Origin: a virus
Reading direction: 5' to 3' (one strand)
Virus record (IMG/VR): IMGVR_UViG_3300042542_004418
Location: 1 to 37,641 of that record
Length of the DNA: 37,641 bases
Both the position numbers and the translations under genes were made by a program. Below the pieces are notes generated by a model, which ran no database searches, had not been told where the DNA came from, and was given only the letters and a program-made list of their open reading frames with translations. How positions within the stretch are numbered: position 1 is the stretch's first letter; each line of letters opens with the position of its first letter. Below, one piece after another: positions 2,709 to 37,641 of the stretch.

Positions 2709-4470
2709 TTTTCTTGAAGCATTACAGGATAATCCTTTTGAAGAAAATCCTGTAGATACAAAAACATTTGTTGAATCAGCAGACTATTTAGGTCAGCCTG
2801 GCTTGTCAGAAATACAGTATGACATTGTTGAGGCTATGAGCCAGGTATATAAAAAAGAAGATTTACAAAGATTAATGGGAGAACAAGAAGGAGCAAGATA
2901 TTATGAAAAATACACGAAAAACGAAATCATCTTACAGTTGGGCAAAGGCTCTGGTAAAGATTTCACCTCTACTGTTGCTTGTGCTTATATTGTATATAAG
3001 TTATTATGTCTCAAAGACCCTGCAAGATATTTCGGAAAACCAAGTGGAGATGCAATAGATTTAATTAACGTTGCTATTAACGCACAACAAGCAAAAAATG
3101 TTTTCTTTAAAGGATTTAAAACTAAAATCGAAAAATCCCCTTGGTTTGCTGGTAAGTATAATGCAAAAGTAGATTCTATTGAGTTTGATAAATCTATTAC
3201 TGTTTACTCAGGACATTCAGAAAGAGAGTCTCATGAGGGTTTAAATATTATGTTGGCAGTATTAGATGAGATATCTGGTTTTGCAACAGAAGTAGGTACT
3301 GGAAATGATCAAGGAAAAACTGCAGATAATATTTATAAAGCATTTCGTGGAACAGTTGATTCTCGTTTTCCAGATTTAGGTAAAGTTGTTTTATTGTCAT
3401 TTCCACGTTTTCCAGGAGATTTTATTTCACAACACTATGAAGATGTTATTGCTGATAAAGAAGTTATATCTAAAAAACATACCTTTGTTATCAATCCTCT
3501 ATTAGATAGTGAAGACAAAGATAATCAATTTAGTATTGAGTGGGATGAAGACCATATTAAATCTTATAAATATCCAGGAGTGTTTGCTTTAAAACGTTGT
3601 ACTTGGGATGTAAATCCTACTAGAAAAATTGATGATTTTAAGGTTGCTTTTATGAATGATCTTGGCGATGCAATGATGCGATTTGCTTGTGTTCCAACCT
3701 TTTCTTCTGACGCCTTTTTTAAACAATCAGAAAAAGTTAGATCATGCATGACATTAAGAAATCCAATAGATCAATTTAAAAGATTTGATGAATCATTTAA
3801 ACCAGATCCAGAAAAAATTTATTTTGTTCACGCAGACTTGGCTCAAAAACATGACAAATGTGCAGTTGCTATTGCTCATGTTGATAAGTGGGTAAATGTA
3901 CAAGTAATTAAAGATTATGAGCAAATATCTCCAGTTGTTGTTGTAGACGCAGTTGCTTGGTGGGAACCAAAAGTAGAAGGTCCAGTAAACCTATCTGAAG
4001 TAAAACAATGGATTCAAAATTTAAGAAGAGTTGGTTTTAATATAGGTTTAGTTTCTTTTGATAGATGGCAATCATTTGATATTCAAAATGAGTTGCAGGC
4101 TGTTGGAATAAAAACAGAAACAGTTTCAGTAGCAAAAAAACATTATGAAGATATGGCTATGCTTGTCTATGAAGAGAGGCTAGCAATGCCAGCGGTAGAG
4201 TTATTGTTTGAAGAATTAACAGAATTAAAAATTATGAAAAATGATAGAGTTGACCATCCACGAAAAAAATCTAAAGACTTAGCAGATGCCGTGTGTGGTG
4301 CAGTTTTTGGGGCAATATCACATACTCCAAAAGACAAAAACCTTGAAGTTGAGGTTCATACCTTTAGAGATAGACCTAAAGATTTTGACAAACTTCCTGA
4401 CAACGTGATACAATATAAACCTATCCCAGATGATGTAAAAGATTATCTAGATAGATTTAATCTAATATAA
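2689..4470 (+). CDS. terL: Large terminase subunit (packaging ATPase-nuclease)
   Basis: 593-aa motor that cuts concatemeric DNA and pumps it into proheads. The ATPase domain shows a Walker A loop GKGSGKD (85-91), Walker B ending D193-E194 (MLAVLDE), and a coupling motif LLSFPR near 235. The C-terminal RNase H-like nuclease has D383 (HADLAQ), D458 (SFDRW) and D530/D533 (KDLADAV). Start: TTG at 2689 lies 9 bases after GAGG; ATG at 2698 is an alternative with poorer spacing. Both overlap the small subunit gene. No portal gene follows, which is unusual. Confidence 0.95.
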   Translation: MSTMFNDFLEALQDNPFEENPVDTKTFVESADYLGQPGLSEIQYDIVEAMSQVYKKEDLQRLMGEQEGARYYEKYTKNEIILQLGKGSGKDFTSTVACAYIVYKLLCLKDPARYFGKPSGDAIDLINVAINAQQAKNVFFKGFKTKIEKSPWFAGKYNAKVDSIEFDKSITVYSGHSERESHEGLNIMLAVLDEISGFATEVGTGNDQGKTADNIYKAFRGTVDSRFPDLGKVVLLSFPRFPGDFISQHYEDVIADKEVISKKHTFVINPLLDSEDKDNQFSIEWDEDHIKSYKYPGVFALKRCTWDVNPTRKIDDFKVAFMNDLGDAMMRFACVPTFSSDAFFKQSEKVRSCMTLRNPIDQFKRFDESFKPDPEKIYFVHADLAQKHDKCAVAIAHVDKWVNVQVIKDYEQISPVVVVDAVAWWEPKVEGPVNLSEVKQWIQNLRRVGFNIGLVSFDRWQSFDIQNELQAVGIKTETVSVAKKHYEDMAMLVYEERLAMPAVELLFEELTELKIMKNDRVDHPRKKSKDLADAVCGAVFGAISHTPKDKNLEVEVHTFRDRPKDFDKLPDNVIQYKPIPDDVKDYLDRFNLI

Positions 4471-4487: not shown

Positions 4488-6107
4488 ATGAATTCATTAA
4501 AGAAAATCGCACTTGTTACCGCTGCAGCGATGGCAAGCACATTCTTTGTTGCAATTCCACAGGCTTCTGCAGCAATTAGTGGCGGATACGAACTATCTGC
4601 TTCTCTTGCTAATGGTGCTCGTGGTGTAACAGTATTATCATCTGATGCTGACAAAGCAGAGGCTGGTGTTAATTCAGTTATTGCATTAACAACATCTGAT
4701 ACTCTTGCTTCAACAGCAGATGATTATGTATCGTTAGAGATTGCTGGACCTGCTATCTTTGGTGCTTATACAGCAGCAAGTAGCAATGCAGCAACACTAG
4801 CACTTACCAATCTTGGTAAGACATTTACATTTACCGCAGCAACATCAACTGCAGTAAATTTACCTTCACCAGTATTGGTTAACGTTACTGGAGCAGGTAC
4901 AGTTACAATTACGCAAAAGAAAAAGGTTGGATCAACCATTTCTGTAATTGATATCAAAACAATTTATGCAGGAACAACTGCTAAGACAGATATTTTTTCT
5001 GTAGCAGACTCTTTGGGTCGTGTACAAGATGACGCAACTCAAGGAACTTTAACATCATCAGCAGATGTTGCTAACTCAACAACTGTTGTTAATGGTGGCA
5101 CAGGATATGTAAATGTTTTGGCACGAGATGGTTGGGCACAAACTATGGCAACAAACGGCGTATTGCAAGCAAATGCAACTAACGGCGCAATTGTTGCATG
5201 GGATGCAGCCCCATCAGTTCAGGCTTCATTTGCTGTAAAGACAGGAACTGGTGGAGTTCTTCAAATTAAGCAGGGTACTGCTAATGAAAACAAGCCAGTA
5301 ACTACAACCATTACAGTTTCATATAATGGAGTTACTTTTGCTACAAAGACAATTACTTTCACAGGTCGTGCAGCATCAATTGCCGTAACAGGTGTTGACA
5401 TTGCACAAGCAGGTGGAGCACGTACAGGAACCTATGACTTTGTTGTTAAAGATTCTGCTGGTAATCAGTTATCTGGAATTACTCCAACTGCTGATACAAC
5501 CAAGTACACATCACAAGTTACAGCAGTTTCAGTTGGTGGAGCATCTTCATCTACTGCAGTTGCAACTGGTGGCTGGACATGTGCTTCAACTTCAGGATCT
5601 GCAACTGTACGTTTACAATACACACACACAGATGCAACAGTAATCTACTCAAATGATTTTGTTGCAGCATGTGCTAGTGGTGTAAATAAGTACACAGCAA
5701 CCCTTGACAAGAAAGAATATAAAGCAGGAGAAATTGCAACCCTAACAATTTCAGCAACAGATGTAAATGGTGCTAAGGTTCACGGTGGAGCAACTCTCGG
5801 TGCTGGCGTAGCAATTTCAGGTGGTCAATTAACACCAGTTACTGCACCAACATCTTCAGATGTATTTGATACAGCAGGAACAAGAGCAATTAAGTTTACT
5901 GTTGGAAATACAACTGGTTCCTTTAACATGATCGTAGATCTTCCAGCATACGTATCGACAGATTCTGCAAAGACTGTTGCATACTCAATTGTTGATGCAT
6001 CTGGATCTGTTACAAATGCTGAAATTTTAAAGTCAATCGTTGCACTTATTGCAACAATTAACAAACAAATTGCAGCATTACAGAAGTTAATTCTTTCAAG
6101 AAGATAA
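4488..6107 (+). CDS. Secreted S-layer-like surface protein
   Basis: 539-aa exported protein with a clear signal peptide (KK, hydrophobic core, cleavage after ASA at residue 28). The mature part is rich in T, S, A, G and V and looks like serial Ig-like beta-sandwich domains, followed by a C-terminal amphipathic helix (SIVALIATINKQIAALQ) ending in basic residues. This architecture resembles abundant surface proteins of freshwater low-GC actinobacteria, by recall. Base composition is visibly more GC-rich and more uniform in codon choice than in flanking phage genes. AGGAG precedes the ATG, and a strong terminator follows. Function unknown: receptor masking, envelope coating or a virion decoration are all possible. 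Confidence 0.75.
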   Translation: MNSLKKIALVTAAAMASTFFVAIPQASAAISGGYELSASLANGARGVTVLSSDADKAEAGVNSVIALTTSDTLASTADDYVSLEIAGPAIFGAYTAASSNAATLALTNLGKTFTFTAATSTAVNLPSPVLVNVTGAGTVTITQKKKVGSTISVIDIKTIYAGTTAKTDIFSVADSLGRVQDDATQGTLTSSADVANSTTVVNGGTGYVNVLARDGWAQTMATNGVLQANATNGAIVAWDAAPSVQASFAVKTGTGGVLQIKQGTANENKPVTTTITVSYNGVTFATKTITFTGRAASIAVTGVDIAQAGGARTGTYDFVVKDSAGNQLSGITPTADTTKYTSQVTAVSVGGASSSTAVATGGWTCASTSGSATVRLQYTHTDATVIYSNDFVAACASGVNKYTATLDKKEYKAGEIATLTISATDVNGAKVHGGATLGAGVAISGGQLTPVTAPTSSDVFDTAGTRAIKFTVGNTTGSFNMIVDLPAYVSTDSAKTVAYSIVDASGSVTNAEILKSIVALIATINKQIAALQKLILSRR

Positions 6108-6122
6108 TTTCTTTTTAAAATT

Positions 6123-6154
6123 AGAGGGTAGATTAATTTCTACCCTCTTTTTTT
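6123..6154 (+). terminator. Intrinsic terminator after the S-layer-like gene
   Basis: A perfect 10-bp stem, AGAGGGTAGA (6123-6132) against TCTACCCTCT (6139-6148), with a 6-base loop and a run of six T directly after. It sits 15 bases after the stop codon at 6107 and isolates this gene from the next, which has its own promoter. Confidence 0.92.
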
Positions 6155-6174
6155 ATTTAATAATTAAATAAAAA

Positions 6175-6183
6175 TGTTATAAT
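6175..6183 (+). promoter_or_regulatory. Extended -10 promoter of the 836-aa surface protein
   Basis: TGT followed by TATAAT. The ATG at 6193 begins 9 bases after the -10 box, so the transcript would have a leader of at most two or three bases. No purine-rich ribosome site is present between the two. Confidence 0.7.
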
Positions 6184-6192
6184 AGTCCTATA

Positions 6193-8703
6193 ATGAAGAG
6201 AGGATCATTTAAAAAACGTTTATTTTTGTCTATTTCTGGAGCCATATTGGTTACAGTTTTATCTTTATTTATATCGTCAGATAGGGTGCATGCGACAGAA
6301 GGTAGTTCTTCAGAACAGGTAATAGTAAGTCCAGCCCAACAAGCAGTTAATACAGCCCTTTCTACGGCTAATACAGAGGTCCAGGAGGCTATTACAGCCA
6401 CAAACAATGCCTTGGTAGAGGTAACACAAGCACAAACCGAATATTCCCAAGCCCAAGGTGTTACGGCAGAAGTAGCCACAAAAATATCTCTGGCTAATAC
6501 AGAAGTAAATAATGTTCAAACCGCTATTAATACTATTAGCAGTGTTGATTTATCTGTTACCCCAATAGATCAAAGTTCTCAGGTAGTTCAAGATGCAAAG
6601 GCTACAGTAACTACTGCAACTACCGCCATAAATAATATAACAACACAAATAGCAGAGGCTCAGACAGCAATATCTGAAGCCGTAGTTGCAAAAACAGAAG
6701 CGTCTACAGCACAAGCAACTGCACAAACAGAATTAACACAGGCAAACCTTGCTATTGATGCTGCTCAAACAGCAGTCAATAATTTACAAGCCACTATTGG
6801 AACAACTGTTAACGTTTTGGCTGGAGTAGACGATGCTGGTGTTCAAATGAATCTTCCATTCGGCATGCAAATGGGAGGAACTGTTTACAACAATGTGTTT
6901 GTTGGATCAAATGCAACAATAACATTTGGAAATAATGAGGGTCATGTATATTGGGATACACCAGGAGCACCTTCTATATCTATTGCTGGCTGGGACTGGA
7001 CTACTTGGAGCACAGGAACTGGAATTACATATTCAACTACTGGAACAAGCCTAGATGTTGCTTGGGACTTAAGGCCTTTCCCGCAACAAGATGCTTCTAC
7101 ACAAATGGTTCAAATTAGATTTAATGCTGATGTTAATCCAAATGACGGTGCATGGATGGCAAACGTAACCGCAGTTGGACCAATACCAGGCGGAGCAAGA
7201 TTTAATTATAGAGAAACAACAAATGGCGCTATTACACCAATTACAGATACAAATTCTGGTACTGGATTTGCTGGACAAATAAGTCAAGGCTCCGCATTTA
7301 CTCCATATGTAGATCCAAATACTTCAACAATTCAGGCAGCAGTAGACTCAGCAAATGCAACAATTACTCAACTAAATCAAAGCCTTTCTCCAGTTGTTGC
7401 ACAAAATACAACAAACACTTCTAATATAAATGCAATCAACACAACATCTTTAACCAATACCGTAAACTCAGCGGTATCAACAAAGACTTCTTTGCAATCA
7501 ACATTAAACACTAAAGCAGGTCAATTAACATCTGCCATCAATAATAACATTCCTACTCCCGCTCCAGTACTTGCGGAACCAATTATTGCTGGTACTACTG
7601 TAACAATTACACCTGAGTTACCAGCAGGATACACAGCAAACACTTGGTTTTATCAAGTAGTAACAGATGATCCAGATGCAGAAAACCCATATGAAGGTGG
7701 AACATATAATACAGATGGTGCGCCAGAGTCTATTCAATTAACTGGTTTGACAGAGGGTGCTACTTATACTATTAGAGTTGCTAACTGGTCTGGACCTGTA
7801 AGTCAATATACTGAGACTGTTATTTCTATACCCGCACAACAAAGTTCAAATATAACTACTGGTGGAGGTTCTGCTCCTTCTTATGACCCTGTTGATAACA
7901 ACGAACAAACTCAACCAGACGAGACCACTCCAGATGAAGGGGATAGTACAGAGCCAGAGCCATCTCCTGATGAGAATAATGAATCTTCTGAAGGTGATGA
8001 ATCTCAAGATACGGATACACCTGAATCTGATGACTCTTCATCCAACGACGAACAAGATAATACTCCTGAAGAAAATGAGGGTACTGATGAAGAAGAGTCA
8101 CAAGATAATGATACCCTATCAGTAGAAGAAATACAGGAAGCAGTTAGCGAATTAATTGAAGATGGAAATATAACTGCTGCAGATGCTGAAGCAGTTCTTG
8201 ATGCGCTATCTGCAGATGGAGAAATTACTACTAATGAAGTAGTTAATTTATCAGAAGTTTTATCTGAAGATGGTGTACTTACTTCAGCAGAAAAAGATTT
8301 AGTTGCAGATGCTTTAGTTGAGTCTACTGATGGTGCTCCAGTTGCAGCGTCAGACATAGCAGCAGCGGGACTTGAATATCGTGATCTTCCACCACAAATA
8401 CCAGTAGAAGTTAGAGAAGATGCTAATGGCAATCCTGTAGTTATTACAGCAGAGGTTGCTTCAGCGTTATTAACATTAGAATCACCTGCTGCATTAGCAG
8501 GAGCCATAATTGGATGCTTTAATCCAGATGAGGCTATTGAAGGTTTGACAGAAGAGCAAAAATGTGAAGTATTTAAGGCACTTGCAAATATAGGTGCTGA
8601 TATGTCACCACAAGAAAGGCAAGACGCCAAGGAAGTTCTTGTAGCAGCCATTTTGGTTGGACAAGTAATTCTTGGTAGTTCAATAATAAGAATAAGGGGG
8701 TAA
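6193..8703 (+). CDS. Large secreted, membrane-anchored coiled-coil surface protein
   Basis: 836 aa. Order of parts: signal peptide with cleavage after VHA at 34; long Ala/Thr/Gln-rich coiled coil about 40-210; a globular beta-rich domain about 210-372 with many Trp and Gly; a second coiled coil about 375-450; a fibronectin-III-like domain about 455-548; an acidic disordered linker about 560-640; three helical repeats with EF-hand-like cores (EDGNIT, ADGEIT, EDGVLT) about 645-710; and a C-terminal hydrophobic segment about 814-832 ending RIRG. A signal peptide plus C-terminal anchor suggests display on the infected cell rather than a virion part. Function unknown. Confidence 0.75.
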   Translation: MKRGSFKKRLFLSISGAILVTVLSLFISSDRVHATEGSSSEQVIVSPAQQAVNTALSTANTEVQEAITATNNALVEVTQAQTEYSQAQGVTAEVATKISLANTEVNNVQTAINTISSVDLSVTPIDQSSQVVQDAKATVTTATTAINNITTQIAEAQTAISEAVVAKTEASTAQATAQTELTQANLAIDAAQTAVNNLQATIGTTVNVLAGVDDAGVQMNLPFGMQMGGTVYNNVFVGSNATITFGNNEGHVYWDTPGAPSISIAGWDWTTWSTGTGITYSTTGTSLDVAWDLRPFPQQDASTQMVQIRFNADVNPNDGAWMANVTAVGPIPGGARFNYRETTNGAITPITDTNSGTGFAGQISQGSAFTPYVDPNTSTIQAAVDSANATITQLNQSLSPVVAQNTTNTSNINAINTTSLTNTVNSAVSTKTSLQSTLNTKAGQLTSAINNNIPTPAPVLAEPIIAGTTVTITPELPAGYTANTWFYQVVTDDPDAENPYEGGTYNTDGAPESIQLTGLTEGATYTIRVANWSGPVSQYTETVISIPAQQSSNITTGGGSAPSYDPVDNNEQTQPDETTPDEGDSTEPEPSPDENNESSEGDESQDTDTPESDDSSSNDEQDNTPEENEGTDEEESQDNDTLSVEEIQEAVSELIEDGNITAADAEAVLDALSADGEITTNEVVNLSEVLSEDGVLTSAEKDLVADALVESTDGAPVAASDIAAAGLEYRDLPPQIPVEVREDANGNPVVITAEVASALLTLESPAALAGAIIGCFNPDEAIEGLTEEQKCEVFKALANIGADMSPQERQDAKEVLVAAILVGQVILGSSIIRIRG

Positions 8704-16065: not shown

Positions 16066-17505
16066 ATGATAATTTTAGGAATTAATGAAACATCTCATGA
16101 TGCATCCGTATCTTTAATTGAAAATGAAAAAATACTTTTTGCAGCCCACGCTGAAAGATATAGTAAGCAAAAAAATGATTGGTATGTAAGCCAAAAGTTA
16201 GTTAACGATGCTTTATTATATGGAAAGCCAGACTACATAGCATATTATGAAAAACCTTTATTAAAAAAAACTAGATTATTATTAAAAGGTGGTGCTGGAG
16301 ATTGGAAACCTAAATTTAATTTAGAAAAAATTCCAAGAGTATCCTTTAAGCATCACTATTCTCATGCAGCAGCAGGATATTACACAAGCAAATTTAATGA
16401 TGCCGTAATAGTTGTATTAGATTCAATTGGAGAGTTCAATACTTCTACAATTTGGATAGGAGAAGGAGAATCAATAGTATTAAAAGAAAAAAGAAATTAT
16501 CCTTTTAGTTTTGGATTATTTTATTCTGCTTTTACAGATTTAATTGGATTAATGCCAAACCAAGAAGAATATATAATGATGGGTATGGCTGCATATGGAG
16601 ATTGGTTAAAATATTATAAAAAAGTTCTTGAATACTTTCCTTCAATCAATCATCAAAAATATAACTTTCATAAAGGTATTGTTGATTGGAATGAACCAAT
16701 TACAGAACAAGATAAATTTGATATAGCAGCAGCGGTACAAAAAGTATACGAACTAAGATTATTTGATTTTATGATACATGCAAAAAAAATAACAAATAAA
16801 CATGAATTAGTTTTTATGGGTGGATGTGCGTTAAATTGTTCTGCCAACACAATGTTATGGGAAATTTTTGATGACGTTTGGATTATGCCTAATCCAGGAG
16901 ATGCTGGATCTTCTTTGGGTGCAGCAGCAGCCCTATATGGAAAACATTTAAATTGGGAAACTCCATATCTTGGATATGATTTGGGCGGTAGTTATGCTGT
17001 AGAAAAAATTGTAAAAGAGTTACTAGAAAATAAAATAGCAGCGGTAGCAATAGGAAAAGCAGAATATGGACCAAGAGCATTAGGCAATAGAAGTATATTG
17101 GCAGATCCTAGAGATCCTGATATAAAAAATAAAGTTAATCAAATTAAAAAACGTGAATTATTTAGACCATTTGCGCCAGTTGTTATGTCAGAATATGCGG
17201 ATAAATGGTTTGATATGGATTTTGATTCTCCATATATGCAATATGCAGTAAAATGTTTAAAGCCAGAACTCATTCCTTCTGTTGTTCATGCTGACGGAAC
17301 ATCAAGAGTTCAAACAGTAACAAAAGATCAACATGTAGGATTATACAATGTTTTAGAAAAATTTTATATAAATACTGGAGTCCCAGTTCTTTTAAATACT
17401 AGTTTAAATATTAAAGGACAGCCATTATTAAATGATGAATCTGATATAATTGATTGGCAATTAACATATAATGCTAAAATCATTAAAGGGGAAAAAAATG
17501 AGTAA
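16066..17505 (+). CDS. O-carbamoyltransferase (NodU/CmcH/TobZ family)
   Basis: 479 aa. The N-terminal ASKHA/TsaD-like domain starts ILGINETSHDASV and has HHYSHAAAGYY (metal/His motif) and GGCALNCSANT. The C-terminal YrdC-like domain has EYGPRALGNRSILADPRDP and NTSLNIKGQPLLN. The family moves a carbamoyl group from carbamoyl phosphate, through carbamoyl-AMP, onto a hydroxyl of a sugar or antibiotic. Shorter than many members (about 550-600) but all main motifs are present. Flanked on both sides by SGNH proteins, so the three may tailor the same glycan. Confidence 0.92.
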   Translation: MIILGINETSHDASVSLIENEKILFAAHAERYSKQKNDWYVSQKLVNDALLYGKPDYIAYYEKPLLKKTRLLLKGGAGDWKPKFNLEKIPRVSFKHHYSHAAAGYYTSKFNDAVIVVLDSIGEFNTSTIWIGEGESIVLKEKRNYPFSFGLFYSAFTDLIGLMPNQEEYIMMGMAAYGDWLKYYKKVLEYFPSINHQKYNFHKGIVDWNEPITEQDKFDIAAAVQKVYELRLFDFMIHAKKITNKHELVFMGGCALNCSANTMLWEIFDDVWIMPNPGDAGSSLGAAAALYGKHLNWETPYLGYDLGGSYAVEKIVKELLENKIAAVAIGKAEYGPRALGNRSILADPRDPDIKNKVNQIKKRELFRPFAPVVMSEYADKWFDMDFDSPYMQYAVKCLKPELIPSVVHADGTSRVQTVTKDQHVGLYNVLEKFYINTGVPVLLNTSLNIKGQPLLNDESDIIDWQLTYNAKIIKGEKNE

Positions 17506-18382
17506 TGAATCTTTAAAGGTTCAACATTACGATATATCCCATATATTCAATAATCAAAATACTAAAAATGTTGCAAACTCCATATTTAGTTTAGGATTAG
17601 AAAAAAATGTTAATTTAATTGAAGATAAAAAACAATTTAGTATTCATTCTACAGAAATTAAAAAAAATGTTAAAGATGATAAAAGTATTTCATATTTATA
17701 TAATAATGATGGATACAGGTGTGACAACTTTGTTGTTAAAAATAAAAAATCTAGAGCAATTTTTTCTGGATGTTCTGAAACAGAAGGAGTCGGCAATAAC
17801 ATAGAAGACACTTGGTCTTTTTTAACATATCAACAATTATTAAAAAGTAACGATCTTGATGGCTATTTTAATTTAGGTTTGTCTGGATCAGGGCATAATA
17901 GAATTATTAGTAATATCATCAATCATATTAAAATATATGGAAACCCAAATTATATTTTTATTTTATTTCCAAACATTGCAAGGTGGACTGAATGGATTGA
18001 TGATGAAATTGAATATATGAATATTGGTTTAGGTCCTTACCAAACAGATATACTTGATAAAGATTTTACAAGTATTAAAAAACAAAGAGATCTTATGATT
18101 CATTTTATTTCAATTATGAAAATATTTGAATTATTTTGTTATCAAAATAAAATTAAATTATTCTGGTCTACTTGGGAGGCTGCTGACGAAGAAAATTATA
18201 AATTTTTATCAGATCAAAATATTTTTAATAATTTTATTTATATAAATAATTTAAATATAAGGCATTTTATTAAAGGTGAAATTAAAAATAATCAAAATGA
18301 TAGATATTTTTTAGCAAGAGATAACCACCTTGGAACAGGTTTTCATAAATATTTTGCAAATGGATTTATATCAAAAATATAA
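17498..18382 (+). CDS. SGNH/GDSL-like hydrolase or acyltransferase 2
   Basis: 294 aa, paralogue of the proteins at 15127 and 27542. Nucleophile S93 in SGCSETEGVG, then NIEDTWSF, a glycine block NLGLSGSGHN, block III FPN and a C-terminal RDNH. It is closer to the 27542 copy, sharing DGYRCDNF-like and NIEDTW segments. ATG at 17498 overlaps the carbamoyltransferase stop (ATGAGTAA) and has AAAGGGG upstream; an upstream in-frame ATG at 17471 lacks such a site. Confidence 0.75.
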   Translation: MSNESLKVQHYDISHIFNNQNTKNVANSIFSLGLEKNVNLIEDKKQFSIHSTEIKKNVKDDKSISYLYNNDGYRCDNFVVKNKKSRAIFSGCSETEGVGNNIEDTWSFLTYQQLLKSNDLDGYFNLGLSGSGHNRIISNIINHIKIYGNPNYIFILFPNIARWTEWIDDEIEYMNIGLGPYQTDILDKDFTSIKKQRDLMIHFISIMKIFELFCYQNKIKLFWSTWEAADEENYKFLSDQNIFNNFIYINNLNIRHFIKGEIKNNQNDRYFLARDNHLGTGFHKYFANGFISKI

Positions 18383-18407
18383 ACTATAGTAGATAGGGAT
18401 TTATATA

Positions 18408-18590
18408 ATGCCAAGATATGATTTTAAATGTGACAACTGCAATACTATTATTGAACTATTCCTTAATATTAACGATGATCATGATTTAAAATGTAAAAAA
18501 TGTAATTATAAATTAAATAAAATTTATACACCAACATCAATAATATTTAATGGTGGTGGATTTTATAAAACAGAAAATAGGAACAAATAA
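18408..18590 (+). CDS. FmdB-like zinc-ribbon protein
   Basis: 60 aa. Starts MPRYDFKCDNC like the FmdB family, with a second CxxC (CKKC) about 20 residues later, completing a zinc ribbon, and ends in a glycine-rich GGGFYKTE typical of the family. Such small proteins are common in phages and bacteria, with a proposed regulatory role that is not established. Confidence 0.85.
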   Translation: MPRYDFKCDNCNTIIELFLNINDDHDLKCKKCNYKLNKIYTPTSIIFNGGGFYKTENRNK

Positions 18591-24190: not shown

Positions 24191-24930
24191 TGGAAGAAAT
24201 AAATTGGTCTGAATATAAAAAATATTTTGCTAGATTAGGATCAAATAAAAATAATATAGTATTGATTAATAATTTTATTGAAGAAAAAGATTTAAAAATT
24301 ATTAATGAATATTTAAAAACTCATGAAAATGATGAAGAATTTATGGGAGGAAAAGACATCAGAGAAGATCAAGTAAAACAAGAAAACTCTGAAGTATATG
24401 ATTTATTAGTTAAATATGAAGAAAAAGTCTTTCAAGAGGCAAAAAAATTATTTACTGATACCTATGGAATTCCTCTTAAAAGAAAAGCAGTAAATTCGAC
24501 ACATTTTGTAAAATGGGTTCCAGGAATGAAATCTAAACTTCATTGTGACTGTGAAAAACCAGACGGCAGTCCAGCGCTTGCTGCAGAATTTTTTAGATAT
24601 AATGTTTCAGTTTTAATGTATCCAAATGAAGATTATACTGGTGGAGAAATTACATTTCCTGATTACGATATAGTAATTAAACCAAAATCAGGAGATATGA
24701 TATTATTTCCAGGAAATGGAGAATATAAACATACCGTAGAACTTGTTACCGAGGGCACTAGATATACAATGCCAAGTTGGTATACCTATGACATAGAAAC
24801 AAAAGTGGAGCATAAAGAGTGGTCATATAAAGATTCAGTTCAATTATGGCCAGAAGAACAAAATCAAGATCCCGTCGGCAACTTAAGTAGAGATAGGTTT
24901 TTAAATGAAAAATCAAAAATGGAAAACTGA
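24190..24930 (+). CDS. 2OG-Fe(II) oxygenase (prolyl-4-hydroxylase type) 3
   Basis: 246 aa. H118 and D120 (LHCDCE), H181 (YKHTV) and R191 (TRYTMP) form the iron and 2-oxoglutarate sites; TGGEITFP lies between. Its last 26 bases overlap the WhiB-like gene. Same family as 13687 and 14487 but with a longer N-terminal helical part (about 1-100). Confidence 0.88.
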   Translation: MEEINWSEYKKYFARLGSNKNNIVLINNFIEEKDLKIINEYLKTHENDEEFMGGKDIREDQVKQENSEVYDLLVKYEEKVFQEAKKLFTDTYGIPLKRKAVNSTHFVKWVPGMKSKLHCDCEKPDGSPALAAEFFRYNVSVLMYPNEDYTGGEITFPDYDIVIKPKSGDMILFPGNGEYKHTVELVTEGTRYTMPSWYTYDIETKVEHKEWSYKDSVQLWPEEQNQDPVGNLSRDRFLNEKSKMEN

Positions 24931-25204
24931 AGGTTTATGCATAGATTATGACACTGACTTTTTCTTTGATAAATACGAAGAAGGTAGTGTTGACTTTAAA
25001 ACAAATATAGATCAATTTTGTTTAAAATGTCCAGTAATGAAAACATGTTTTGCTAATGGAGTTTCTGGAAAAGAGTTTGGTGTTTGGGGTGGAATTTATT
25101 TAGAGTTTGGTGAACCTTCTAAAGAATTTAATTCTCATAAATCTAAAGAAAATTGGGCTGTTCACTGGAAGGCTTTAACATTAGATAATGAAAACGTTAT
25201 TTAA
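24905..25204 (+). CDS. WhiB-like Fe-S transcription factor
   Basis: 99 aa. The four WhiB cysteines are C12, C39, C42 and C48 (LCIDYDTDFFF; CLKCPVMKTC), followed by the FGVWGG turn that contacts sigma factor. WhiB proteins are confined to actinobacteria and their phages and bind the primary sigma factor region 4 to change transcription or, in phages, superinfection behaviour. The acidic second half and weakly basic tail differ from host WhiBs, which usually end with a basic DNA-binding segment. Overlaps the upstream oxygenase. Confidence 0.92.
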   Translation: MKNQKWKTEGLCIDYDTDFFFDKYEEGSVDFKTNIDQFCLKCPVMKTCFANGVSGKEFGVWGGIYLEFGEPSKEFNSHKSKENWAVHWKALTLDNENVI

Positions 25205-31473: not shown

Positions 31474-32265
31474 CTAATCTATAGATGTCCAATAAGTAGT
31501 AGGGCCAGGACTAAAGGGAGTATTATGAATACATCCTACTATCCATATAAACCCATCATTTTTTAAAATATTAATCATTTCATTTTTTACGTATTCTGGA
31601 TTACCATAAATTAACGTTTCGTTATGCATAGTCATATTGACTCCAATAAAAATCCAAGAATCAGATCCAAAAATATTTTCAATAGATTCTATTGTTTCTA
31701 TTATTCGAGTTTTAGAATCCAAAAAAACTACAGTCGAGTATAAGGTTTTTGAACTATTTAAAATATTGTTTTTATCTGAAATGTTTTTAGGCAAATATCC
31801 GTAATAATGAAAATTTCCTGTAGGAAAACCAGATAGGGCTAATGCTGTTATGGCTACATTGGGCCCAGGAATTGATGTTACAACTATATCATTTTCTATT
31901 GCTAGTTCTACAATTTCTCTTCCAGGATCTGTTATTGTAGGCATCCCACAATCACTTATCATTAAAACTTTTTTATTATTTTTAAGATGTTCTAAAGTCT
32001 TGTCAAAAGTTTCTATATGGCTTCCATCGTATTGTAATAAAATTATATCTTTTGTATGGTTTAAATTATAGTTATTACAAAGTTCTATAAAAATTTCTAT
32101 ATTTTCAGTTACAACAACATCTGCCTGAGGAATTACTTCAAGCATTCTAATGGGAAGATCTTGCTTATTTCCTATTGGCATTCCCCCAAGAATAAGACAG
32201 CCCTTTTGATAATCTTTTAAATTTTTAAATGTATTTATATTTTTAAAAGTAGTTTGTTTAAACAC
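31474..32265 (-). CDS. rsmI: RsmI-like 16S rRNA 2'-O-ribose methyltransferase
   Basis: 263 aa, tetrapyrrole-methylase fold. GGMPIGNKQDLPIRMLEVI corresponds to the family's TPIGNL segment, SDCGMPTITDPGREIVE to the DAGxPxISDPG motif, and SIPGPNVAITALALSGFPTGNF to the PGPSA...SGLPT motif. Cellular RsmI methylates C1402 of 16S rRNA at the decoding centre. Domain order is complete and length near normal (about 280). Whether the phage enzyme has the same target or another ribose is unknown. It overlaps the small gene upstream by eight bases. Confidence 0.85.
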   Translation of the reverse strand: MFKQTTFKNINTFKNLKDYQKGCLILGGMPIGNKQDLPIRMLEVIPQADVVVTENIEIFIELCNNYNLNHTKDIILLQYDGSHIETFDKTLEHLKNNKKVLMISDCGMPTITDPGREIVELAIENDIVVTSIPGPNVAITALALSGFPTGNFHYYGYLPKNISDKNNILNSSKTLYSTVVFLDSKTRIIETIESIENIFGSDSWIFIGVNMTMHNETLIYGNPEYVKNEMINILKNDGFIWIVGCIHNTPFSPGPTTYWTSID

Positions 32266-32486: not shown

Positions 32487-33179
32487 ATGAGTGATTATAT
32501 TAATAAAGAAATTATACAGAATTCTATAATTAATAAAATACCTATTTTTATACCAGACTATGAGACGGATTTAAATAAATTGGCAAATTGGGCAGATGTT
32601 GCTAGACAATTTAGAATTAATTTGGAAAAGCCAGATTCTGGAGAAAATAATAAATTTCATAGCACCAAAGGTCATGCTCATTTTATGGATAAAAATAATT
32701 TTTATCTTGACCATATTCATCTTATTGAAACTAAGATTAGACATTTAGCAAAAAAAATACAAGAGGTTCATCCTAAAAAAAGAATAACAACAGCCACAAC
32801 AATTGCAACGTTAGATGATGTTGTTGTTGATAAAGATTATAGCGATATACAAAAAATCATGTATGATAATTATATATCTATAAATGAATTTTCTTTAAAG
32901 GCTCATCACGAACCAAGTTTACATAACGATGAAACCGATAACCTATATCTTCAATGTTACGGAGAAGTAGAATGGGTCGTACATAACAAAAAATATTTAA
33001 TAAAACCAGGTCAAGCAATATTTGTTCCTGCCTTTACGGATCATATTGTTCATTTTAAAAAAGTTCCAAGAATGGCTATTATTATGAATTTTTTAAGTGA
33101 TACAGTTAATAAACCTAGTTTACCTCAGTTTGACGAAACAACTGGCAAAACTTATTACGAATATAATAAAAATATTTAA
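32487..33179 (+). CDS. Cupin/JmjC-like 2OG-Fe(II) oxygenase 2
   Basis: 230 aa. H146 and D148 (SLHNDETD) and H186 (FTDHIVHF), with LQCYGEVEWVV and IKPGQAIFVP between, form the cupin_8/JmjC-like core. An N-terminal helical part (1-135) is separate. The substrate is unknown. The leaderless start is supported by the promoter, and the end overlaps the convergent thioredoxin gene by four bases. Confidence 0.75.
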   Translation: MSDYINKEIIQNSIINKIPIFIPDYETDLNKLANWADVARQFRINLEKPDSGENNKFHSTKGHAHFMDKNNFYLDHIHLIETKIRHLAKKIQEVHPKKRITTATTIATLDDVVVDKDYSDIQKIMYDNYISINEFSLKAHHEPSLHNDETDNLYLQCYGEVEWVVHNKKYLIKPGQAIFVPAFTDHIVHFKKVPRMAIIMNFLSDTVNKPSLPQFDETTGKTYYEYNKNI

Positions 33180-33427
33180 CTGGTATATTCTATTAATTGC
33201 TCATTGGTTATTAGTCCTACGTGTCTATGTGAAACTACCATATTTTCTTTAACAAATAATAAAGTAGGAACGGAAAGAACTGAATATTCTCTTGCTTTTT
33301 CAATATGAGCATCAACATCTACTAAAATATAGTTAATGTCTGATCTATTTTCTAAAAATGAATCTATAATTGGTTTTATTTTTTTACAAGGGTTGCACCA
33401 TTCAGCGGTAAAGTGTATTATAGTCAT
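33176..33427 (-). CDS. Thioredoxin-like protein
   Basis: 83 aa, minimal thioredoxin fold with the redox motif W10-C-N-P-C14, the cis-proline region SVPTLLFV, and no signal peptide. NPC in place of GPC may shift its redox potential toward a glutaredoxin-like value. Phage thioredoxins reduce ribonucleotide reductase or act as polymerase partners; neither partner is in this window. Own leaderless promoter. Confidence 0.92.
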   Translation of the reverse strand: MTIIHFTAEWCNPCKKIKPIIDSFLENRSDINYILVDVDAHIEKAREYSVLSVPTLLFVKENMVVSHRHVGLITNEQLIEYTS

Positions 33428-33433
33428 CTAGTT

Positions 33434-33442
33434 ATTATATCA
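33434..33442 (-). promoter_or_regulatory. Extended -10 promoter of thioredoxin, leaderless
   Basis: Minus strand TGA then TATAAT (33439-33434), six bases, ATG 33427. Confidence 0.8.
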
Positions 33443-33450
33443 TAATAATG

Positions 33451-33537
33451 TTAGAATAGTAGTGTAGTCACAATAGCAAATGAAACTATTAGATATAATA
33501 AAAATAGGACACTTTTAGTAGCCTTTTTATTATCCAT
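33451..33537 (-). CDS. 28-aa single-span membrane peptide
   Basis: Charged start MDNKKATK then a continuous hydrophobic helix to the C-terminus (LFLLYLIVSFAIVTTLLF). AAGGAG lies before the ATG, and the ATG overlaps the stop of the preceding gene (ATGGATAA). Tail-anchored topology; it may target the host membrane. Function unknown. Confidence 0.65.
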   Translation of the reverse strand: MDNKKATKSVLFLLYLIVSFAIVTTLLF

Positions 33538-33709
33538 TGTTATTCTCCTTTTCTGCAAAAGCGTTATAAACGACAGTTCGTAATGATTGTTTTATAAACT
33601 CTTGCTGTCTTTCAAATTTGCTATACTGAGGTTTATTCTTTAGCCTAGTTTTATTCTTTAGATACCTTTTTTGTTTTCTTTGAGATATCTTTTTATTATT
33701 TTTTTTCAT
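33530..33709 (-). CDS. 59-aa highly basic protein
   Basis: The N-terminal half is almost all Lys/Arg/Asn (KKNNKKISQRKQKRYLKNK), followed by a polar helix. It overlaps the zinc-finger peptide upstream (ATGA) and the membrane peptide downstream, so the three form one operon. Probable nucleic-acid binder; unknown. Confidence 0.65.
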   Translation of the reverse strand: MKKNNKKISQRKQKRYLKNKTRLKNKPQYSKFERQQEFIKQSLRTVVYNAFAEKENNNG

Positions 33710-33813
33710 TTATGTTCCTTTAAATGTGCTTGTAATGTATAAAAAGCAAAAGAAGATCTAACTTGAATTTCTTTTTTACACAAATCACATATGACCATTC
33801 TATTTGCTGACAT
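33706..33813 (-). CDS. 35-aa C2H2-type zinc-finger peptide
   Basis: MVICDLCKKEIQVRS then LQAHLKEH: CxxC, twelve or more residues, HxxxH, the spacing of a classical C2H2 finger, rare in bacteria but found in phages. A TATAAT nine bases before the ATG gives a near-leaderless start. First gene of a three-gene minus-strand operon. Confidence 0.7.
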   Translation of the reverse strand: MSANRMVICDLCKKEIQVRSSFAFYTLQAHLKEHK

Positions 33814-33839
33814 TATATATCCATTATACTATACTGAAT

Positions 33840-33870
33840 AAAAATAAGCAAGTTAAAACTAGCCAACTTG
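33840..33870 (-). terminator. Probable terminator of the fibre operon
   Basis: On the minus strand CAAGTT (33870-33865) and AACTTG (33854-33849) form a 6-bp stem starting at the last codons of the fibre gene, followed by CTTATTTTTATT. Moderate strength. Confidence 0.5.
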
Positions 33871-34940: not shown

Positions 34941-34946
34941 TAGATT

Positions 34947-34955
34947 AGTATATCA
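34947..34955 (-). promoter_or_regulatory. Extended -10 promoter of the fibre operon, leaderless
   Basis: Minus strand TGA then TATACT (34952-34947), six bases, ATG 34940. Confidence 0.8.
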
Positions 34956-34975
34956 TTGTATTTCGGCGATATAGA

Positions 34976-35039
34976 GTTCGGCGACAAATAGAAATAGCAA
35001 ACCCTCCTATGCACCTAACGGTGCACTATTGGTTAGTAT
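34976..35039 (+). repeat. Structured repeat, copy 1
   Basis: 64 bases nearly identical to 35440-35502. Its core is a 6-bp hairpin, TGCACC-TAAC-GGTGCA. The second copy has a different but equally perfect hairpin, so paired bases changed together, which points to a conserved RNA or DNA structure. An outer pairing AACC/GGTT is kept in both. Confidence 0.75.
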
Positions 35040-35107
35040 TTCTTAATAATGCTGATAATCCCTATTGAGATACATATTGCAAGAACAATATTTAAGAGAT
35101 TACTCAT
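35033..35107 (-). CDS. 24-aa membrane peptide
   Basis: MSNLLNIVLAICISIGIISIIKKY: one hydrophobic helix with a basic end. Its ATG overlaps the stop of the 42-aa gene (ATGAGTAA). Its stop lies inside structured repeat copy 1. Small and of uncertain function. Confidence 0.5.
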   Translation of the reverse strand: MSNLLNIVLAICISIGIISIIKKY

Positions 35108-35228
35108 CATCTTCAGGGCCTTCAATTGATATCCAAACCCCATCTTGATCAAGACCCCATGTCATGAAAACATAACAGGCAATATAGCCAAGAATAAAGG
35201 CGGGAATTAAGAATAATAAATTTACCAT
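35100..35228 (-). CDS. 42-aa membrane protein
   Basis: MVNLLFLIPAFILGYIACYV forms one membrane helix, followed by FMTWGLDQDGVWISIEGPEDDE, an acidic tail. There is no clear ribosome site; a TTGACA (35257-35252) lies upstream on the minus strand, but the 17-base spacing puts the -10 (TGTTAT) right against the ATG. Coupled to the next tiny gene. Function unknown. Confidence 0.6.
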   Translation of the reverse strand: MVNLLFLIPAFILGYIACYVFMTWGLDQDGVWISIEGPEDDE

Positions 35229-35261
35229 ATAACAATGATATCAAACCTTTATGTCAAAATA

Positions 35262-35360
35262 AAGAGAGGGGACAGTTTTAAGACTTGTCCAGGTCCTATC
35301 CTGATCAGTAATTTATAGACGCTGTCAGGCTCTCATATTGCGTCTTGGCTTTGGTTAAGC
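35262..35360 (-). ncRNA. Candidate small structured RNA or leader
   Basis: Downstream of the strong minus-strand promoter at 35367-35395 the transcript would contain AGACGC (35345-35340) pairing with GCGTCT (35322-35317), a palindrome CTGATCAG, and a hairpin GGACA/TGTCC ending in CCTCTCTTTATTTT. No ORF fits, so it is either a short RNA of about 95 bases or the leader of the 42-aa gene. Confidence 0.4.
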
Positions 35361-35366
35361 ATTATA

Positions 35367-35395
35367 AGTATACAAAGGTTTGAAAGGTTTGTCAA
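35367..35395 (-). promoter_or_regulatory. Consensus-like minus-strand promoter with tandem operator
   Basis: TTGACA (35395-35390), 17 bases and TATACT (35372-35367). The spacer and -35 are made up almost wholly of two abutting copies of AAAGGTTTG (35374-35382, 35383-35391), so a protein bound there would block the promoter. Confidence 0.82.
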
Positions 35396-35439
35396 GTCAA
35401 ATTTCGAGAGTAAAGGCAAGGCAAAAATAGAAGTTTAAA

Positions 35440-35502
35440 GTTCGGCGCAAAATAGAAGTAGCAAACCTTCCTATGCCCTAAGAGGGCACTATCGGTTAGT
35501 AT
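35440..35502 (+). repeat. Structured repeat, copy 2
   Basis: 63 bases matching 34976-35039. The hairpin is TGCCCT-AAG-AGGGCA, perfect like copy 1 but with two base pairs replaced (A-T to C-G, C-G to T-A). It lies just upstream of the -10 box at 35516. Confidence 0.75.
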
Positions 35503-35515
35503 CCTACCTATGCGA

Positions 35516-35521
35516 TATAAT
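35516..35521 (+). promoter_or_regulatory. -10 box of the 45-aa membrane protein
   Basis: TATAAT, 26 bases before the ATG at 35548, which has its own AAGGAG. A leadered mRNA of about 20 bases is expected. No clear -35. Confidence 0.55.
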
Positions 35522-35547
35522 GGATTGATATAGATTAAGGAGTAAAC

Positions 35548-35685
35548 ATGGGAGTGCTTTGGTTTTTTGTTGGATTGGTTGTGGGCTTAGCCCTAGATTT
35601 TGTTTTAGTATTGCATATGCTCAAACCTCTTAAGAAACGTATTGTGGAATTAGAAAATCGGTGGGTAGACAAACAAAGACCGTAA
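35548..35685 (+). CDS. 45-aa membrane protein
   Basis: One N-terminal membrane helix (VLWFFVGLVVGLALDFVLVL), then a basic amphipathic helix (LKPLKKRIVELENRW). TTAAGGAG before the ATG is a strong ribosome site. Function unknown; the layout is like small phage spanin or inhibitor-type peptides, without further support. Confidence 0.7.
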   Translation: MGVLWFFVGLVVGLALDFVLVLHMLKPLKKRIVELENRWVDKQRP

Positions 35686-35702
35686 TCTTCCAGTGTAATA
35701 AC

Positions 35703-35735
35703 AAGCCTATCCGCAATATGGGCGGGGACAGGCTT
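35703..35735 (+). other. Intergenic hairpin
   Basis: AAGCCT (35703-35708) with AGGCTT (35730-35735), and inside it CCGC with GCGG. It follows the 45-aa gene by 17 bases and may end its transcript, though no T-run follows. Confidence 0.5.
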
Positions 35736-35768
35736 AAACCTTCAATAATGCTATAATAAGATATACCC

Positions 35769-35963
35769 ATGTGCCCTATATGTAATAACCACCTGATACC
35801 AATCGTATATGGTTTTGTAGGGAAGAAATATCTGGATGCCCACGAGAAAGGTTTGATATTTCTGGTTAGCAGGACATATCACCGAAAGTCTGATCCATTG
35901 TCATATTGCCCAGTATGCCATGAATCGTATGATGAGGATATTGCCTTACCCCCGCTTTTTTAG
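35769..35963 (+). CDS. Small two-knuckle zinc-ribbon protein
   Basis: 64 aa. MCPICNNHLIPIVYGFVG at the N-terminus and CPVCHE near the C-terminus form a zinc ribbon; similar short proteins are widespread in actinobacteria (recalled), function unknown. TGC-TATAAT (35749-35757) lies 11 bases upstream, giving a very short leader. Confidence 0.78.
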   Translation: MCPICNNHLIPIVYGFVGKKYLDAHEKGLIFLVSRTYHRKSDPLSYCPVCHESYDEDIALPPLF

Positions 35964-36039
35964 TCTCTCTAATAGGCTAATATGGCCTGATATGAAGGTT
36001 TTAGGGTTTGTCAACAAACTCTTAGTATAATAAGTTATA

Positions 36040-36690
36040 ATGAAAACAGTCTTTATACTGGCAGCAGGTGATGGAACTAGATGGGAAAACTATAGAGGTA
36101 GCCCTAAGCATAAAGTCCTAGTTGAAGGTGAAGTCCTGATTGAAAGGACATATAGGCAGTTTTCTAAGTATGCTGATAAAGTTATAATAGTCGCAGATGA
36201 AGAACAAGGTTTTGCCGAAACTTATATCCCCGCTAAAAATAAAGATTGGAAAGATATAGCCAAGTTCTGGTCAAGCAAAGATATTTGGTCAGAAGGTAAA
36301 AATATTATGGTTTTTGCAGATGTATATTTTACAGATGAAGCCGTTGAGTCGATAATGAATGATCCTTATGGCCTATCATTTTATTTAAGAAGTAGGCGTT
36401 CTGAAATTACACAAAAACCATGGAGAGAGATATGGGGCATAGGGTTTGATGGTTTGTCTATTGATATTTTAAAGTCTTCAATATTAAGCATTATAGAATC
36501 TAAAGAAAATTATAATACTGGTGGTTGGCGTTTGCTTGATCAATTGAATAAAGATAATCAAAGGGTGAACTTAGTAGAAATAGATGATTGGACTGAAGAT
36601 TTTGATTTTCCTAAAGATATAAGAAGATGGGAAAAGCAAAGAAATGAATTTTTATCTAAAATAAATCTTACTGACAATAACAAGATCTGA
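36040..36690 (+). CDS. Sugar nucleotidyltransferase-like protein
   Basis: 216 aa. FILAAGDGTRW (G10-D-G-T-R14) is the nucleotide-binding signature, K25 in SPKHKVLV the expected substrate lysine, and MVFADVYFTDE the DxD-like metal region. Such enzymes make NDP-sugars for glycosyltransferases, linking it with those at 12797 and 19371. TATAAT lies eight bases before the ATG, so it is probably near-leaderless. Confidence 0.78.
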   Translation: MKTVFILAAGDGTRWENYRGSPKHKVLVEGEVLIERTYRQFSKYADKVIIVADEEQGFAETYIPAKNKDWKDIAKFWSSKDIWSEGKNIMVFADVYFTDEAVESIMNDPYGLSFYLRSRRSEITQKPWREIWGIGFDGLSIDILKSSILSIIESKENYNTGGWRLLDQLNKDNQRVNLVEIDDWTEDFDFPKDIRRWEKQRNEFLSKINLTDNNKI

Positions 36691-36982
36691 CTGTGGTGAG
36701 TAGTGGAGAATAGTGGTGGGTAATGGAGCGTTTATATCGTAGGGCTCGTAATGTCGTAACGGGCCAAACCTCATATCCTCCAAACCTTCAAACCTTTATA
36801 TCCTGCATATAGGACCTGCATTATATACCAGATATGATGGTTTGTCAAGTAATTTCAAACCTTTATACCCCAAATATCCCGTATAAAAAACCACAAAAAA
36901 TCCAGGAAAAATTTAAATAAATCGTAAAAAGGTTTTAAAAAGTTTAAAAACCAGATAAAAAGGTTTGTTATTTATATAGGGA
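36691..36982. other. AT-rich non-coding regulatory stretch
   Basis: Holds a purine-rich run with repeated TAGTGG-like units (about 36695-36725), a hairpin GGCTCGT (36743-36749)/ACGGGCC (36759-36765), five copies of the AAAGGTTTG motif, a strong minus-strand promoter and a very A/T-rich tract (36880-36960). No convincing gene. It could be a replication origin or a control region. Confidence 0.5.
36820..36848 (-). promoter_or_regulatory. Consensus minus-strand promoter
   Basis: TTGACA (36848-36843), exactly 17 bases, TATAAT (36825-36820): a perfect consensus. The -35 merges with a CAAACC motif. Transcription runs left from about 36813 into the end of the nucleotidyltransferase gene, so its product is an antisense or small RNA, or a tiny ORF. 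Confidence 0.82.
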
Positions 36983-37177
36983 TTATTTGGTGTCGCTTTG
37001 TCTTCCCCGCCTGAAAAAACGGCGGGATCTAGCGATGTGTTTATAAGTCCTAGTAATAGGAGAGAAGGCAAATTGGATAGCATGTTCTATTTTTAATTCC
37101 AACTCTTCTTCTCTCTGGTTTACAGGTTGACCATGAGATTGTCTTCTATATCTTTCTGCAAAATGTCTTGGACTCAT
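36983..37177 (-). CDS. Small basic unknown protein
   Basis: 64 aa, rich in Arg: MSPRHFAERYRRQSHGQ, an acidic middle helix (REEELELKIEHAI) and a basic end (ARSRRFFRRGR). A leaderless promoter exactly upstream supports it as real. Probable nucleic-acid binder. Confidence 0.68.
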   Translation of the reverse strand: MSPRHFAERYRRQSHGQPVNQREEELELKIEHAIQFAFSPITRTYKHIARSRRFFRRGRQSDTK

Positions 37178-37184
37178 ATTTCAA

Positions 37185-37193
37185 ATTATATCA
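37185..37193 (-). promoter_or_regulatory. Extended -10 promoter, leaderless
   Basis: Minus strand TGA then TATAAT (37190-37185), seven bases, ATG 37177. Confidence 0.75.
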
Positions 37194-37235
37194 TCATATT
37201 AAGATACAAAGGTTTGGGCGCAAAAAAGCGGGGGA

Positions 37236-37364
37236 TCAACCAGAATACATATATCTAAAATGCTTCCTACAAGTATCTATAACAAACCCTTCTTCATTGG
37301 TAGAAGAAAAGATAGAGTCATTATCACAGTAATAACACTTTGTTGGGCATTTAAGGTTTGACAT
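37236..37364 (-). CDS. 42-aa Cys/His zinc-type protein
   Basis: MSNLKCPTKCYYCDND then CRKH: C6, C10, C13 and C32/H35 could hold zinc, much like a minimal version of the DUF7455-type zinc fold at 19156. Found because a perfect TGA-TATAAT box sits six bases before the ATG. Codon use is like its neighbours. Confidence 0.65.
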   Translation of the reverse strand: MSNLKCPTKCYYCDNDSIFSSTNEEGFVIDTCRKHFRYMYSG

Positions 37365-37370
37365 ATTTTA

Positions 37371-37379
37371 ATTATATCA
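37371..37379 (-). promoter_or_regulatory. Extended -10 promoter, leaderless
   Basis: Minus strand TGA then TATAAT (37376-37371), six bases, ATG 37364. Confidence 0.78.
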
Positions 37380-37482
37380 GATAGGAAGGTTTGGGATAGA
37401 AAGGTTTGATATCGTAATAAAGTTCAGGGATTTTTTAAACAATCTTCTTAATGTCTAAAAATGTTAAGGTTTGTCGGCCCCT

Positions 37483-37641
37483 TTACTCGTCCCCACCTTT
37501 ATCAAAAATTTCTTCTAAAGTATTAAATCCAGTGTCTTCTAATTCTAATGAGGCCAAAAATAAATGCCATGTTTCATCAATGTATACTTCAGCCTTAGGG
37601 CTCATATCAACTATATCAGTAGAGATAAGATAAGCAAGAGG
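37483..37641 (-). CDS. Partial gene at the right edge
   Basis: The C-terminal 52 aa of a minus-strand protein whose start lies beyond the window: ends ETWHLFLASLELEDTGFN then LEEIFDKGGDE. Acidic and helical, with codon use like neighbouring genes. An overlapping plus-strand frame is its shadow. Family unknown. Confidence 0.65.
   Translation of the reverse strand, partial: PLAYLISTDIVDMSPKAEVYIDETWHLFLASLELEDTGFNTLEEIFDKGGDE

Follow-up and report, generated by a model that had tools for sequence, protein, structure and literature searches.

Short sequence units repeated over promoters are known from the MetJ met-box operators, where tandem units are read by a ribbon-helix-helix repressor. Short repeats also adjoin the terminal repeats of T7 and may mark the terminal repeat. 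The omega/parS heptads of pSM19035 form short direct and inverted tandem units over promoters (PMC9499535). The stoperators of cluster A phages (L5, Bxb1) are asymmetric sites, some of them on promoters, and their sequence varies with the cognate repressors (PMC6550527). They are 13 bp long, are spread over temperate genomes in one main orientation to transcription, and go with a two-domain repressor (PMC9283540, PMC6550527), the cluster A phages being temperate and carrying an immunity repressor (PMC9283540).

In the Streptomyces BE phages LukeCage, Samisti12 and Coruscant (Boydwoodruffvirinae), the left end of the direct terminal repeat is the one place where a short motif is enriched. All three carry TTCGTAA repeats there, LukeCage and Samisti12 show DnaA boxes just outside, and the variable repeat differs (GTCTTATAT, CTATATACA, TATATATAG). 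In LukeCage, GTCTTATAT occurs 7 times around the phage's own terminal-repeat start and 0 times in the other 130 kb. We found no published function for the variable repeat and no account of the array locus in the BE-phage literature.

The window analysed here is a 37,641-nucleotide DNA of a lake-water phage. It is an entire IMG/VR contig, and the counts given for this phage cover the contig. A blastn search of the window against known phages gave no direct match. The sequence-only reading had proposed an array of AAAGGTTTG sites, and this array is real, with 9 exact copies in 34941–37641 versus 0.06 expected from dinucleotide shuffles (Table 1). Shorter forms are enriched in the same region by the same measure, AGGTTTG with 16 copies versus 0.38 and GGTTTG with 23 versus 1.24. 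The other 35 kb of the window are near background for AAAGGTTTG (2 versus 0.88 expected), with AGGTTTG at 10 versus 5.25 and GGTTTG at 22 versus 15.75 in dinucleotide shuffles. If up to one mismatch is allowed, AAAGGTTTG has 40 matches across the window versus 18 expected. Thus the motif is not equally dense elsewhere, and the sites are also kept in relatives. Two details of that reading need correction: it counted five near-exact copies, but eight one-mismatch copies lie in 35242–37473, and of its two exact tandem pairs only 35374/35383 is exact (9 bp apart), the pair at 36781/36789 (8 bp apart) having one inexact unit. The copies at 35847 and 35622 need not be operators because they are situated inside coding sequence.

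Table 1. Positions of the array sites, promoters, genes and other elements. Positions are those of the window unless a relative is named.
Feature	Position	Strand	Remark
Exact AAAGGTTTG copies	35242(-), 35374(+), 35383(+), 35847(+), 36789(-), 36856(-), 36959(+), 37208(+), 37400(+)	see positions	
Exact copy left of P3	35242..35250	-	
Probably non-coding transcript region below P3	35262..35357	-	95 nt; conserved, 7 distinct sequences
P3	35367..35395	-	TTGACA-17-TATACT, 11/12; outside predicted terminal repeat
GTGGAG element	36702..36724	+	conserved; predicted start of direct terminal repeat (left genome end)
Three GGTTTG sites (36765, 36781, 36789)	36765..36797	-	8-bp register, pointing at genome end
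P1	36820..36848	-	TTGACA-17-TATAAT, 12/12 sigma70; fires leftward to genome end
Exact copy directly upstream of P1 -35	36856..36864	-	
Sites 36928 (inexact) and 36959 (exact)	36928..36967	+	
Small gene within array	36983..37177	-	64 aa, MSPRHF family
P2, small-gene promoter region	37178..37216	-	TATAAT ~10 nt before ATG; exact site 37208-37216
More sites: 37283(-), 37352, 37385, 37400, 37465	37283..37473	+	
WhiB-like regulator	24905..25204	+	phrog_472, E 1e-11; conserved in relatives
Second DnaA-box group, relatives	G018 31484-32103; G022 5659-7944; G024 3657-3669; G002 16307-18408		

The conserved unit is a core of 6–8 bp rather than the 9-mer, with GGTTTG as its form in this phage; the core consensus was built from 60 sequences. 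The unit is shorter than the 13-bp asymmetric stoperator ending in TGTCAAG. Short tandem units overlapping promoters are found here as in the ribbon-helix-helix operator arrays, and the omega/parS heptad array of pSM19035 is the nearest structural parallel. In contrast to omega/parS and MetJ, the units of this array leave gaps and mostly recur at 8 or 16 bp.

The array probably lies just inside the left genome end, which is predicted at about 36724 with a cut near GGGTAATG/GAGC (the bar stands before GAGC). The end position is deduced from gene order, from BE-phage end sequences and from contig ends. A Cas4-like nuclease, the terminase and a tRNA region are followed by leftward small genes (in relatives, for example, DUF932 and GP88), and by this order the array corresponds to a gap in LukeCage that lies where a 12.3-kb direct terminal repeat begins. 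Sequence identity of the large terminase to its counterparts in Streptomyces BE phages is 54%. Around the start of their terminal repeats, BE-type phages have sequences such as GTGTAATG/GTGC of LukeCage. The GTGGAG element of the window, at 36702, resembles them, has GTGGGTAATGGAGC beside it, and is conserved in the 82 listed non-redundant loci. Of 61 true contig ends in relatives, 4 lie 7–33 nt rightward of the element pattern, and 0 of 40 lie within 200 nt on its left side.

The element pattern was found in at least 120 loci, of which at least 107 belong to the family, a large group of uncultured relatives of the Streptomyces BE phages, and at least 82 are non-redundant (window included); the loci are related by descent, so that these counts overstate independence, and many contigs are partial. 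Each genome examined has one array, a cluster of 2–3 kb, as opposed to the 20 or more genome-wide sites of the cluster A stoperators. The core is NNTTTG. Most arrays are of GGTTTG, some of TGTTTG and a few of an AATTTG type. Within each phage the sites of array and promoter shift in concert: the promoter site reads AACC in 44 loci and AACA in 5 where the array is GG, and AACA in 10 and AACC in none where it is TG. Concerted variation of this kind is shared with the cluster A stoperators. Orientation is also ordered. Up to 120 bp from the element there are 241 minus and 2 plus sites, and between 120 and 350 bp there are 187 plus and 52 minus sites, whereas stoperators keep one main orientation to transcription. 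Annotated and predicted transcription is leftward on both sides of this flip. Spacing between same-strand sites peaks at 8 and at 15–16 bp. A second motif, TCGTAAT, flanks the arrays in 76 of 82 listed loci and is the counterpart of the BE-phage TTCGTAA repeats. Thus comparison of the loci, as read from their sequences, shows an array with a conserved place, a polarity, an overlap with promoters and a concerted change of sites.

Several further elements were seen near these loci. The window contains two copies of an element at 34972–35039 and 35436–35503 (88% identical over 41 nt) with a hairpin and GGTTAGTAT; neither copy has an Rfam match. At 36040–36690 an NTP-transferase-like gene takes the place that DnaA boxes hold in most relatives. 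In relatives, exact DnaA boxes also form a second group, ~8–13 kb from the array, near the divergence of gene direction (Table 1). Arrays of relatives (e.g. L229, G003) display a third recurring motif, approximately TTCTGGGAAAAATTT, beside TCGTAAT. In relative G001, GP88, DUF932 and DUF1281_C proteins (33146–33865, 36087–37190, 37753–38487) are in the early block of the predicted terminal repeat and are possibly host-takeover or anti-defence genes.

Sites appear on or just upstream of the -35 box in three kinds of promoter. The two promoters named by the sequence-only reading, P1 and P3, both exist, but the site fused to P1 is GATGGTTTG, so that at P1 only the core GGTTTG is shared. The P1 -35 box is itself fused to a GGTTTG site (TTGACAAACC). 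At the P1 place, 78 of 82 listed loci have a leftward sigma70 promoter scoring 11/12 or better, and in 62 it is a perfect 12/12; no perfect promoter arose in shuffles. Most of these 62 carry a site over the -35 box, which runs into it as TTGACA-AACC in 44 loci, and the spacer often contains a dyad, CAAACA-CTAA-TGTTTG. The small in-array gene has sites no more than 70 bp upstream in 43 of the 51 loci having it. At P3, which is 1.3 kb outside the predicted genome end, the tandem exact sites 35374 and 35383 cover the -35 box and spacer. The TTGACAAACC sequence is kept there in 7 of 7 distinct sequences with the element (window counted), and the spacer varies. The transcript region below P3 showed no RNA covariation among its 7 distinct sequences and no Rfam match, the Rfam matches of the window being tRNAs only. 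Outside the arrays a site is near a strong promoter in just 7 of 95 cases.

In our judgement the array probably, though far from certainly, consists of operator-type sites for one sequence-specific and probably phage-encoded regulator that acts on the promoters of the terminus; the genome would be linear, with long direct terminal repeats and the array at its left end. The idea of an operator-type network over promoters, already present in the sequence-only reading, is supported by the -35 overlap and by the joint change of array and promoter sites. This joint change points to a single binding protein in each phage. The host strain of isolation is the same for LukeCage and Samisti12, but their motifs at the same place differ, which makes the binder likelier to be phage- than host-encoded. 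Overlap with the -35 box, spacer and start suggests repression. We infer that one protein reads all the sites and represses. Such a regulator would bind the 6–8 bp core cooperatively, in 8-bp steps, and would cover the -35 box, spacer and start region of the perfect sigma70 promoter that fires outward to the genome end. It would also cover two further promoters, that of the small gene in the array and that of a nearby non-coding RNA outside the array, and would shut or time all three. Against this, several sites (e.g. 36959, 37400) have no clear promoter, and in so dense an array some overlap with promoters is partly to be expected.

Apart from the WhiB-like gene, no clear gene for a transcription factor was found in the window. 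WhiB proteins work together with sigma at -35 boxes. Most sites here are away from -35 boxes, which speaks against WhiB as the sole binder, and WhiB binding at sites away from promoters is unlikely. Low G+C together with a WhiB gene is compatible with an actinobacterial host, and cultured Nanopelagicales phages carry whiB (PMC10202952). The ribbon-helix-helix family RHH_1 (PF01402), a protein of the kind encoded with the parallel arrays above, had no match in 14 related records, where diverged members could be missed. The HTH repressor that the sequence-only reading proposed to look for did not appear: HTH_3 (PF01381) gave no convincing Cro/CI-type repressor in the 14 records, only one weak hit across stop codons. 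Tyrosine integrase and resolvase were likewise not found in these records, several of which are incomplete. A candidate small terminase (2172–2708) was rejected as binder, its HTH being nearly identical in GG- and TG-array phages. The in-array proteins of relatives are hypervariable, 55–94 aa long, start with MSPRHF or alike and have a short-leader promoter; they were rejected as well, being of no known family and not seen in L229. A 140-aa protein whose N-terminus is ISVKI seemed divergent in a single TG phage, but it did not vary with the motif. A G-quadruplex or telomere-like role was rejected because TGTTTG and AATTTG arrays are without GG tracts.

A link of the array to replication or packaging is possible: no target gene of the outward promoter is conserved, which would suit either function as well. 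The repeats could be iteron-like and act with host DnaA boxes at a replication origin, the outward promoter giving transcriptional activation or a primer across joined ends. We consider this unlikely, but the DnaA boxes give it a real share of the probability. In 62 of 81 listed loci the element has at least two exact TTATCCACA boxes no more than 150 bp away, and boxes adjoin the terminal repeat in LukeCage and Samisti12 too. The conservation of the TCGTAAT repeats and the constant output of the terminus promoter, non-coding sequence leading to the DnaA boxes, would suit an origin. Direct repeats beside DnaA boxes are thus seen in most relatives as in iteron origins. However, array and promoter persist in the window and its clade, where the array has no DnaA boxes beside it. 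Several promoters carry sites, one of them 1.3 kb off, and a 6–8 bp core spaced at 8 and 15–16 bp is unlike helix-phased iterons of 17–22 bp. No initiator was found. The LukeCage locus is a GC-skew maximum, which is terminus-like, but skew is confounded by gene direction and does not separate replication from it. Also rather doubtful is a genome-end switch, in which the perfect promoter just inside the terminus would fire out of the linear genome until the ends are joined in a circle or concatemer; transcription would then cross into the DnaA boxes and start replication dependent on host DnaA, with the phage-specific operator array setting the timing.

Packaging or terminus processing, in which the small terminase or some other end-processing protein would bind the sites to mark the terminal repeat, is improbable but keeps some weight because of the array position. 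The sites are at the predicted start of the terminal repeat with strict polarity relative to the end, and a repeat array next to a terminal repeat is known from T7. For the T7 repeats, neither an overlap with promoters nor a concerted change of motif is known. The near-identity of the candidate small terminase HTH across GG and TG arrays argues against it, as does the occurrence of the same sites at the promoter of the small gene and at P3, 1.3 kb beyond the end. An origin or packaging role appears to explain the second promoter and the loss of DnaA boxes in the clade less simply than operators do.

That the sites are stoperators of a temperate phage repressor, the half of the sequence-only interpretation that did not hold up beside its promoter-overlapping operators, is very improbable: they lie over promoters, vary among relatives and are sense-oriented downstream of P1, but they are clustered instead of scattered, their polarity flips while transcription stays leftward, and the 14 records gave no integrase, resolvase or HTH_3 repressor. 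The likeness to TGTCAAG stems from the -35 box, since TTGACA and its flanking C give this sequence when read on the opposite strand; only 3 of 23 regional GGTTTG sites run into TCAA, and two of these are -35 boxes. A BE1 relative is described as lytic (PMC12509530).

Read as operators for a phage regulator, the array points to a control locus that is conserved at the genome ends of the cultured Streptomyces BE phages and of a large group of metagenomic actinophages, most of them uncultured. That the sites change in concert implies a regulator specific to each phage, and array DNA offers a bait with which to find it. Should replication or packaging be under the control of the array, it would connect host DnaA with transcription and the ends of the genome in phages that have no known lysogeny genes.
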